From assembly GCA_026984795.1 (NCBI GenBank), contig JALSRK010000009.1, positions 1 through 64,000 of the forward strand: DNA of 64,000 nt, read 5' to 3'. The DNA is from Solibacteraceae bacterium. GTDB lineage: Bacteria; Acidobacteriota; Terriglobia; Bryobacterales; Bryobacteraceae. This document shows, in pieces, positions 60,971 through 64,000 of this stretch. The position numbers were made by a program, and so were the translations under genes. The notes beneath the pieces are model-generated. The model worked only from the letters and a program-made list of their open reading frames with translations, made no database searches and was not told where the DNA came from. The first letter of the stretch is position 1, and the number at the start of each line of letters is the position of its first letter.

Positions 60971-62212
60971 TCACCTGGTCTGAATCGTGATCCTCATCTG
61001 GTTCCACTTGTAGTTCACCGTGTGCGAGCGCCCCTCCTCGTTCTTCATCGCATCGGACCAGATGAGCACCATCTCCCGGCCGTCGGCGCTGATCCACTTC
61101 GGCGACAGCTTCGGCTGGTAGGTGCGGTTCTCCGGCGAATCCACCGTCCAGTGCTCGCTGTAGTAGAACTCCCGCCACGGCCCGTAAGGCGTCTCGGAGT
61201 ACCAGAAGCCCAAGCTGCCGGTCTCGGTGTGCATCCAGGCGTCGTAGTAGTCCTCGTCGGACGCCGTCATCCCGTGGCCGGCGTAAGTGCCGCCGTTCAC
61301 CATGATGTAGCCGCCCAGCCCCTCGTTCCAGACCACCGAGGGCAGCCAGGAATACCAGCCGAAGTATTTGCCGTCGCTGCTTTTTTCGGGGAACACGTGC
61401 GCCGCCCCCCGCTCGCGGATCTGCTTCGACCACACCGGCCGCCCCTCGCCGTCATAGCGGACGAAATACTCCCACGCCTCCCGCACTCCCAGCCGCCGCT
61501 TCTCGACCCGCGCCAGCAGCAGCCGGTTCGAGTGCGCCCCCTCGGGCGAGTAGATGTAGACGTAGCCGTCCCGCGCCGCCTCTCCGTCCCGGCCGTTCTG
61601 CACGAACGAAACGTAAGAAAAAGGATAGGCCTCCTGCTCGACGTGCGGCAGGCCGAACTCCTCGAGGAAGAACATCTCCTCCCGGCTCACGAGGTTGCGA
61701 GCCGCATCGAACCGCTGCAGCTTCCGCTCCCCGCCCCACCGGTCCACCCGGAACCACGTCTGGCCATTGTCCGGCGATTTCAGCAGCTTCAACCCCCGGA
61801 AGGGCCCCGACCACCGCGGACCCGGCGTCCTCGAGATCGTCGCGTAGAGCACCCCGTCCACCGAGACCACCCCGTAGCCGAACCAGCTTCCCTCTTCGCC
61901 GCTGAAGTCCGGGTAGTTGGCGATCTCTTCCCGCCGGAAGCCCTCCGGACCGCCCAGGATCCGGTACAGCCGCGTGTGGTAGGAGCGCCCCGACTCCAGC
62001 CAGTCGCCGTCGCACATCGACGTCACTTGGGAGTCATCGGCCGCCCAGGTAATGCACCAGTTGTCGCCCGCCTTGCCCACTCGTACCAGGGTGTCCTCGT
62101 GGAACACGACGCCCACCGGAACCTTTTTCGGCGCCTCCCGCGCGGGCTTCTGGCAACCGCTCCACAACAGCCAGGCGGCTGCTATGAGGAACCGCCACCG
62201 CCGCGCGCACAC
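60971..62212 (-). CDS. Putative lipoprotein with a five-bladed-propeller (DUF4185-like) domain
   Basis: This protein of about 413 residues has a body rich in aromatic motifs such as WCITWAADDSQVT, YHTRLYRILGG, SPDNGQTWFRVDRW and KYFGWYSWLPSVVWNEGLG (quoted in part: FGWYSWLPSVVW). These resemble DUF4185/glycosidase-like propellers of secreted proteins. A GTG at 62212 gives an ideal lipoprotein leader: two arginines, hydrophobic FLIAAAWLLW, then SGC as lipobox. ATG 62263 (GGAG eight bases upstream) and ATG 62278 give longer, less signal-like N-termini. It is presumably a surface lipoprotein; function unknown. Confidence 0.65.
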   Translation of the reverse strand: MCARRWRFLIAAAWLLWSGCQKPAREAPKKVPVGVVFHEDTLVRVGKAGDNWCITWAADDSQVTSMCDGDWLESGRSYHTRLYRILGGPEGFRREEIANYPDFSGEEGSWFGYGVVSVDGVLYATISRTPGPRWSGPFRGLKLLKSPDNGQTWFRVDRWGGERKLQRFDAARNLVSREEMFFLEEFGLPHVEQEAYPFSYVSFVQNGRDGEAARDGYVYIYSPEGAHSNRLLLARVEKRRLGVREAWEYFVRYDGEGRPVWSKQIRERGAAHVFPEKSSDGKYFGWYSWLPSVVWNEGLGGYIMVNGGTYAGHGMTASDEDYYDAWMHTETGSLGFWYSETPYGPWREFYYSEHWTVDSPENRTYQPKLSPKWISADGREMVLIWSDAMKNEEGRSHTVNYKWNQMRITIQTR

Positions 62213-62454
62213 GCCGCACTCTATTCTGTCCAAAGTCGCACCCCGGCTCGTGGATCTTGCCATCCTTCGGACTCCCATTCGGGCACTCGTCTATGAGAGG
62301 CTCCTCGGAATCCGTCCGGATGCCTGTTTCCAAGGCCTCCGAGCAGGCCGCCGCCCGCCGGCAGGAGGATGGACATTGCCGGCGCGCCTGCTGCGGGGCC
62401 GGATGACACCGCTCCCCGGCCCGGCGGCGCCCATAAGATATCATCACATGCTCC
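62213..62454. other. 242-bp gap between the lipoprotein start and the tandem repeats
   Basis: This stretch contains the 5' side of the lipoprotein gene, with its alternative starts, and unremarkable GC-rich DNA. No promoter or second gene was recognised. The tandem unit begins abruptly at 62455. Confidence 0.4.
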
Positions 62455-62592
62455 TGTCCCCGGATTTCCCCACCGCGGCCGCCACTGCTCCGATGCACTC
62501 GTGACCGGTGATCCACCCACCCCGCACCCGCGTGCCCCAGCCGGATGGCGGCGGCCGATGAATCCCTTCTTGATCAGGTCCCGGCGCTCACA

Positions 62593-62680
62593 GGGAAATG
62601 CGGGGACTGCCTCCCATTGCCCGGCGCCGGAACCTCGCTCTCAGTCAGAAGCGCAATTGGCTGGCTGTCCCCGGATTTCC
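62593..62680. repeat. Long imperfect inverted repeat (hairpin), copy 1
   Basis: Arms at 62593-62620 and 62653-62680 are about 28 nt each and nearly complementary, separated by a 32-nt loop. The outer part pairs GGGAAATGCGGGGAC with GTCCCCGGATTTCCC. The hairpin spans the junction between the first and second 211-bp copies. Confidence 0.75.
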
Positions 62681-62803
62681 CGACCACGACCGCCACTGCT
62701 CCGATGCACTCGTGACCAGTGATCCACCCACCCCGCACCAGCGTGCCCCAGCCGGATGGCGGCGGCCGATGAATCCCTGGCCGATCAGGTCCCGGCGCTC
62801 ACA

Positions 62804-62891
62804 GGGAAATGCGGGGACTGCCTCCAATTGCCCGGCGCCGGAACCCCGCTCTCAGTCAGAAGCGCAATTGGCTGGCTGTCCCCGGATTTCC
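62804..62891. repeat. Long imperfect inverted repeat (hairpin), copy 2
   Basis: Arms at 62804-62831 and 62864-62891 pair over about 24 of 27 positions, with two mismatches and one bulge, around a 32-nt loop. Here the inner part also pairs well (CCAATTGC with GCAATTGG). It spans the junction of copies two and three. Confidence 0.75.
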
Positions 62892-62977
62892 CCACCGCGG
62901 CCGCCACTGCTCCGGTGCACTCGTGACCGGTGATCCACCCACCCCGCACCCGCGTGCCACAGCCGGATGGCGGCGGC

Positions 62978-64000
62978 CGATGAATCGCTGCCCGATCAGG
63001 TCCCGGCTCTAACGCATCGCACCTAGAATAAGACGCTCGATGTCTAGTCTCAATCCCTTCTTGATCAGGTCTCGGCTCTAACGATCTCATCTCCGACACG
63101 TACGAGTTCAATGGAGTCTCAATCCCTTCTTGATCAGGTCTCGGCTCTAACGAGTCCGTCCGCCCGAAGCCCACTGAGACCGTCAGTGTCTCAATCCCTT
63201 CTTGATCAGGTCTCGGCTCTAACCCAAGGTAGCCGAGAAAGCCGCGCCGAGGCGCGTCTCAATCCCTTCTTGATCAGGTCTCGGCTCTAACTAGGTCTTA
63301 GCGCCCCGGCCAGCCCCTAGAAGCGTCTCAATCCCTTCTTGATCAGGTCTCGGCTCTAACTCTTCCAGTCTGCCTTGTTCAATGTCCTCTTCCGTCTCAA
63401 TCCCTTCTTGATCAGGTCTCGGCTCTAACCGTTCCACCCACAGCGTTGACATTCGTGACAGTCTCAATCCCTTCTTGATCAGGTCTCGGCTCTAACACAG
63501 CTTACTTCCACTACTTCCGCAAGTTCCCGTCTCAATCCCTTCTTGATCAGGTCTCGGCTCTAACGCGGCGTTGCGGACCGGATTCTCTCCCGCACCGGGT
63601 CTCAATCCCTTCTTGATCAGGTCTCGGCTCTAACGCAGACCCTGACCAGGTACACGGTGGAGGTGGCGTCTCAATCCCTTCTTGATCAGGTCTCGGCTCT
63701 AACGGGCGAATTGATCAACGACAGCGACCGCCCTCGTCTCAATCCCTTCTTGATCAGGTCTCGGCTCTAACGCAGACCCTGACCAGGTACACGGTGGAGG
63801 TGGCGTCTCAATCCCTTCTTGATCAGGTCTCGGCTCTAACGGGCGAATTGATCAACGACAGCGACCGCCCTCGTCTCAATCCCTTCTTGATCAGGTCTCG
63901 GCTCTAACTTTCTGCGGCAGCTTGCGCTGACCGGCTAGAGTCTCAATCCCTTCTTGATCAGGTCTCGGCTCTAACGCTGATCGAGTCGATCTGGAGAACT
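62978..64000 (-). CRISPR. CRISPR array, trailer end (36-nt repeats; continues past the right edge)
   Basis: Fourteen identical 36-nt repeats start at 63047, 63116, 63188, 63256, 63325, 63394, 63461, 63529, 63599, 63668, 63736, 63805, 63873 and 63940. A degenerate one (27/36 matches) lies at 62978-63013. Fourteen complete spacers are 31-36 nt long; a further one is cut by the window edge. On the minus strand the repeat ends in ATTGAGAC, resembling the ATTGAAAC 5'-handle of many type I and III crRNAs, so transcription is probably right to left. Degeneration at the left end agrees that this is the trailer. Leader and cas genes should lie to the right. Confidence 0.95.
63635..63872. repeat. Two-spacer block duplicated in tandem within the CRISPR array
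   Basis: The spacer at 63635-63667 is identical to that at 63772-63804, and the spacer at 63704-63735 is identical to that at 63841-63872. The repeat-spacer-repeat-spacer block is thus present twice with a period of 137 bp. This is a recombination between repeats, not four independent acquisitions. Confidence 0.95.

Follow-up and report, generated by a model that had tools for sequence, protein, structure and literature searches.

Terminal repeats of CRISPR arrays have been described as degenerate at their 3′ end, and duplications within arrays have been attributed to replication misalignment, in the part of a review available to us (PMC8047081). Tandem arrangements of another kind are found in Pseudomonas fluorescens SBW25, in which ordered REPIN clusters, according to the accessible text of that study, consist of tandem, near-identical hairpin elements together with their flanks, the largest ordered cluster holding four elements and an additional REP (PMC3116915). 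REP arms have a palindromic core and are often tagged with GTAG or CGTC (available portion of PMC3733652). A solitary repeat in a viral genome is the setting given for Racr RNA anti-CRISPRs in the sections at hand of PMC10651486. The locus considered here joins a palindrome to a decayed terminal repeat, a combination that was not found described in the open-licence literature, including the available parts of PMC8047081, PMC3116915, and PMC4004331, which is weak evidence of absence. The statement in an initial annotation of this DNA that no standard name exists therefore stands for the combination but not for its parts, since tandem clusters of palindrome plus flank (PMC3116915) and degenerate terminal repeats (PMC8047081) both appear in the portions available.

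The window, that is, the whole stretch analysed, comprises bases 1–64000 of contig 9 (85,331 bases) from a draft genome of 77 contigs and 5.23 Mb. An intact CRISPR array on the minus strand occupies 63047–64000 and extends as far as position 70998 of the contig; it has 115 repeats overall, one of them carrying a single change. Past its other end (last repeat at 70998) lie a Cas2 ORF (71268–71600) and an adjoining Cas1, and from 71.27 kb onward the plus strand gives family matches to Cas2, Cas1, Cas6, a Csm6-model ring nuclease, Cas10/Csm1, and Csm2 to Csm5, a set that is type III-A as judged by these matches. After this first cas2-cas1 pair, at 72635–73800 of contig 9, come two further matches, one Cas1-like and partial, the other Cas2-like. 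The minus-strand repeat terminates in ATTGAGAC, an end that we take to resemble a ATTGAAAC-type crRNA handle. The adaptation genes, by cas gene position, are at the opposite end of the array and the repeat direction agrees with this, so that 62454–63013 is the trailer, as the initial annotation had called it, and the leader would be at the far end; the last repeat is also degenerate at the transcript 3′ end. Inside the array, 63599–63735 and 63736–63872 form a 137-bp duplication of two repeat-spacer units, 100% identical, and the locus therefore does duplicate. Spacers numbered 2 and 16 (from 0, on the trailer side) are one spacer present twice. Downstream of the array lies a same-strand ORF at 60971–62278, starting at 62278, in which DUF4185 scores 37.6 bits, below the Pfam cut-off of 39.5.

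The trailer is built from a tandem unit. Tandem Repeats Finder (TRF) reports 62454–63007 as a repeat of period 211 with 2.6 copies, 94% matches, and no indels, which bears out the earlier description of a 211-bp unit in two full copies and a partial third. Between copies 1 and 2, 200 of 211 positions are identical, and over the 139 bases common to all three copies the identities are 130 (copies 1 and 2), 130 (copies 1 and 3), and 127 (copies 2 and 3). The unit consists of a palindrome, a flank, and a decayed terminal repeat. In the tandem alignment the flanks lie at 62471–62555 (copy 1), 62681–62766 (copy 2), and 62892–62977 (copy 3). The array-distal boundary of the cluster is an extra, lone palindrome arm on the minus strand (62454–62470), whose 17 bases recur in the arm of copies 2 and 3; on the minus strand, unrelated sequence follows it. 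The arrangement resembles the duplication of repeat-spacer blocks in the review text available (PMC8047081) in being a tandem duplication involving repeats, of which this array also has an internal example, but the duplicated block here includes non-array flank and a palindrome.

Each copy holds one decayed CRISPR repeat on the minus strand, at 62556–62591 (29/36, with an exact 20-nt core), 62767–62802 (25/36), and 62978–63013 (27/36, the terminal one), the scores being ungapped matches to the 36-nt array repeat. These are not chance matches, because the background in bases 1–62400 peaks at 21/36 on the plus strand (20/36 on the minus strand). The 27–29 of 36 positions claimed earlier for every block thus needs correction for copy 2, but the decayed repeats are real, and the different course of decay noted before is also seen, copy 1 retaining its exact core and copy 3 retaining GGCTCTAAC. 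Block 3 is followed by the oldest recognisable spacer (63014–63046, minus strand) and then by the first intact repeat, one normal repeat-spacer step of 69 nt away. Like the degenerate terminal repeats treated in the accessible part of PMC8047081, the blocks are leader-distal and degenerate at the transcript 3′ end; what differs is that three of them stand here in tandem, 211 nt apart.

All three blocks carry the same non-repeat base at five positions, and four of these fall among the first five on the plus strand, which correspond to the transcript 3′ end; the end that would form the crRNA handle is thus changed in every block. Seven further positions vary, and at each of these at least one copy has the base of the intact repeat. 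The five common substitutions indicate that one already degenerate terminal repeat was copied, in keeping with the initial proposal that the terminal repeat and its flank were amplified. Comparison of the three copies points to an order of decay, then amplification, then more decay. Variable positions make up 7/36 of the blocks and 7/102 of the flank (Fisher p 0.05); this somewhat higher density in the blocks may be a hint of conversion by intact repeats, or of selection rather than plain drift.

As 211 nt is approximately three repeat-spacer steps, it is possible that further decayed repeats fill the flank in register, with one weak candidate at −69. This possible older repeat (62487–62522, minus strand) lies 69 nt before repeat 1 and matches at 17/36, with counterparts at 62698 (18/36) and 62909 (16/36) in copies 2 and 3; shuffle P values were 0.02 (copy 1), 0.006 (copy 2), and 0.06 (copy 3), the copies not being independent of one another. 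Gapped local alignment of the flanks (300 shuffles each) gave no support on the plus strand, with P values of 0.85 (copy 1), 0.40 (copy 2), and 0.39 (copy 3), and uncorrected P values of 0.09 (copy 1), 0.23 (copy 2), and 0.04 (copy 3) on the minus strand. The 114 array spacers gave top local scores of 27–29 against the unit, with no control to set them against.

The palindromic element, absent from the initial annotation, is an 88-bp imperfect palindrome present in each full unit, on the minus strand at 62593–62680 (copy 1, model match E 7.2e-20) and 62804–62891 (copy 2, E 6.9e-21), both copies being in the training set of the model. The fold of copy 2 (62803–62891) as single-stranded DNA has −27.1 kcal/mol under DNA parameters, where shuffles average −15.7 (z −4.97), and none of 200 shuffles reached that stability. 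A covariance model built from six palindrome copies returned 14 rows over both strands of the genome at E ≤ 0.1, corresponding to 8 distinct places, to be read as at least eight, with 150 of 3056 candidates scored. Two of these are in the cluster and at least six are elsewhere (contigs 27, 76, 52, 72, 44, and 77); the training set included all of the eight except the copies on contigs 27 and 77. No CRISPR repeat was found near the six other palindromes (loci of 1.7–3.1 kb each), the top matches of 18–20/36 being at background, and no tandem clustering of the palindrome was seen at the one other locus examined for it. In 40 relatives, searched under stricter filters with 107 candidates scored per genome, the model matched at E ≤ 0.001 in two. 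The copies on contigs 27 (66169) and 76 (619) lie near contig ends, have flanks that resemble each other without being identical, and are possibly part of a longer duplicated element.

The palindrome invites comparison with ordered REPIN clusters (PMC3116915, as far as its available text describes them), which likewise place a hairpin of inverted arms together with its flank in tandem; the extra single arm here corresponds to the additional REP there. Two inverted arms do form a hairpin in the fold of copy 2. Unlike in those clusters, the flank here holds a decayed CRISPR terminal repeat, and few copies were found. The arms of one copy folded alone gave −2.4 and −7.9 kcal/mol, with 470 and 131 of 500 mononucleotide shuffles as stable (RNA parameters), and GTAG was absent from both strands of the two arms of one copy. 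Since the isolated arms do not exceed shuffles in stability, the element is termed only “REPIN-like”, and the precedent fits by architecture, not by membership. Y1_Tnp matches occur at two places in the genome, one of them a 269-aa ORF on contig 17 whose inverted flanks share, by eye, TTCGGGGACA and CCAATTG with the palindrome copies, with no full match; a RAYT link of the palindrome by way of these flanks is suggestive only. The palindrome also has inverted ends, as a MITE would.

Searches for the unit itself gave a different picture from those for the palindrome. The 211-bp unit was not found elsewhere in its own genome (40 of 68 first-look candidates scored), where matches were confined to parts of the palindrome and to the CRISPR repeat with its surroundings, and the whole unit occurred in none of 100 relatives, this genome being alone of 101; no same-genus genome was among the relatives listed. 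Phage and plasmid collections gave no match, and Rfam gave only sub-threshold CRISPR-DR8 matches, in intact repeats. A dispersed element and a phage or plasmid origin were each considered for the unit and rejected on these results. The initial annotation had also suggested that a repeat-containing element seeded the array end, an idea that finds no backing in a unit that was found at no other place among the candidates scored in this genome, is whole in none of the 100 relatives, has no match in the phage and plasmid collections, and whose dispersed part is the palindrome, with no CRISPR repeat seen near its other copies. It had named dispersal of the unit without CRISPR-like blocks as a finding that would speak against its reading; none was seen, and the palindrome alone is dispersed. 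Short matches to the unit occurred in two relatives, one of 28 bases at 96% (G045) and one of 33 bases at 88% (G053), and the 3-kb loci around them had no CRISPR repeat match of 20/36 or more. The 28-base match overlaps decayed repeat 2 and its edge; it is probably a chance similarity, but unexplained.

Array ends were surveyed more widely by scanning 58 stretches: the contig-9 locus, ten from seven relatives, and 47 Cas1 loci. Arrays of at least four repeats with a consensus of 24–40 nt were retained, 33 in all (one from this genome, four from relatives, 28 from Cas1 loci), and were oriented by the repeat end, by eye; some hosts are related, so the arrays are not fully independent. After 14 trailers and 4 leaders had been dropped because a sequence end truncated them, 19 trailers and 29 leader sides were left. 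A repeat match past the last good repeat was found at p ≤ 0.01 in 10 of the 19 trailers, the present one included, and on none of the 29 leader sides at p ≤ 0.05. Nine of the ten matches were decayed and one (L079) was a perfect repeat further on, and six of the ten top matches were approximately one or two normal repeat-spacer steps away. In addition, an array lost to the length filter (L067) and a short array (L072) each had a decayed repeat one step past the end (26/36 and 23/36, respectively). TRF, applied to the first 900 bases of each of the 18 remaining trailers, detected no amplified unit comparable to the present one. Decay past array ends thus fits a common state, and amplification looks rare; trailer decay as a rule accounts for the blocks, not for their copying.

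Further observations were made on individual loci of the survey. In relatives of the same family, decayed repeats in register were seen past the array ends at L065:8063 and L070:343. In L090, a Bryobacterales array, a 46-bp stretch of the trailer is exactly duplicated in tandem approximately 460–555 nt past the last repeat. Solitary repeat-like blocks occur well outside arrays at L087:9147 (30/36) and L102:9613 (31/37); in a reversed-repeat control, two chance matches of at least 23 were found in 480 kb. In a Sedimenticola sp. (L075:18965–19000), a repeat-like block (25/36) lies across an ORF's start codon, approximately 350 nt past the decayed last repeat of the array. The ORF is related to the Cas6 of the genome studied here (36% over 170 residues) and had no Pfam match in its first 200 residues; the block could be a processing or regulatory site in a cas6 leader. 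No repeat-like block of 23/36 or more precedes cas6 in the present genome outside the array region.

It is likely, in our assessment, that the trailer of this type III-A array was altered in steps and is a recombination scar. The terminal repeat would have decayed first, chiefly at the transcript 3′ end, as is common in terminal repeats, and a palindrome from the low-copy dispersed family would have lain beside it or been inserted there. Palindrome, flank, and decayed repeat would then have been duplicated in tandem until three blocks were present; replication misalignment or unequal recombination would be the mechanism, and the hairpin may have favoured it. The outermost palindrome would have been reduced to one arm, and the three blocks would have diverged from then on. 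The order of events is drawn from the three copies, because no relative carries the unit. What is observed is the anatomy, the substitutions common to the copies or private to one, the dispersed palindromes, and the array orientation given by the cas genes; the insertion, the order of duplication, the terminal deletion, and the lack of function we infer. The repeat blocks are most likely relics without a guide function, because they are at the end opposite the leader and the end that would form the crRNA handle is changed in all three.

Other explanations would give the cluster a role. Trailer-RNA hairpins could act on the array transcript, by terminating or protecting it, and could insulate the ORF on the same strand whose start is at 62278. 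Under DNA parameters the palindrome is far more stable than its shuffles, the RNA of the whole trailer has a fold z of −2.84, and the ORF at 60971–62278 is indeed downstream of the array on its strand. We consider a functional transcript end unlikely, however, as the unit is found in 0 of 100 relatives and the palindrome family occurs elsewhere without a nearby repeat. Amplified degenerate repeats might instead form a boundary that guards the array against loss by recombination at its last repeat, and polymorphisms of the terminal repeat may lower the chance of array collapse according to the part available of a review (PMC8047081). For this purpose one degenerate repeat would suffice, by our reasoning, and tandem copies, with the exact 20-nt core of copy 1, would add recombination substrate; the unit was again not found in 100 relatives, and such an element is extremely unlikely. 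The broader idea that palindromes and decayed terminal repeats are amplified jointly at array ends because the cluster is functional, for example by ending the transcript in hairpins and shielding the last repeat, strikes us as distinctly improbable.

Repeat-like blocks of 25–29/36 adjoining an array might also suggest a guide-like or anti-repeat RNA gene with repeat mimics, of the tracrRNA, CreA, or Racr type. Type III-A, to which the neighbouring cas genes belong, is not known to use a tracrRNA; every block is altered at the end that would form the handle; the blocks are spaced at 175 nt and not at approximately 33; and beyond sub-threshold CRISPR repeats in the intact array there was no Rfam match, and no phage or plasmid match. 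No type II or V effector was found among the nine ORFs scanned beyond the array, which gave matches to the Cas1, Cas2, and Csm1 to Csm6 families only. The blocks adjoin the host's own array and have no phage match, unlike the viral setting of Racr RNAs in the available part of PMC10651486. We give an RNA gene almost no credence. Duplication of the trailer by the assembly would be conceivable in a draft genome of 77 contigs, yet each copy has private differences, which argue against simple assembly expansion, and the contig has 62 kb of sequence to one side of the cluster and more than 22 kb to the other, so that an artefact is very improbable.

In the reading as a recombination scar, this case illustrates how local palindromic repeats can, along with duplication in tandem, reshape the oldest end of a CRISPR array. 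The small survey, in which 9 of 19 usable trailers, this one included, and none of 29 leader sides had decayed repeats, is consistent with decay being common at such ends. The case also counsels caution, in that repeat-like blocks in a trailer should not be taken for regulatory RNAs without conservation or RNA evidence.
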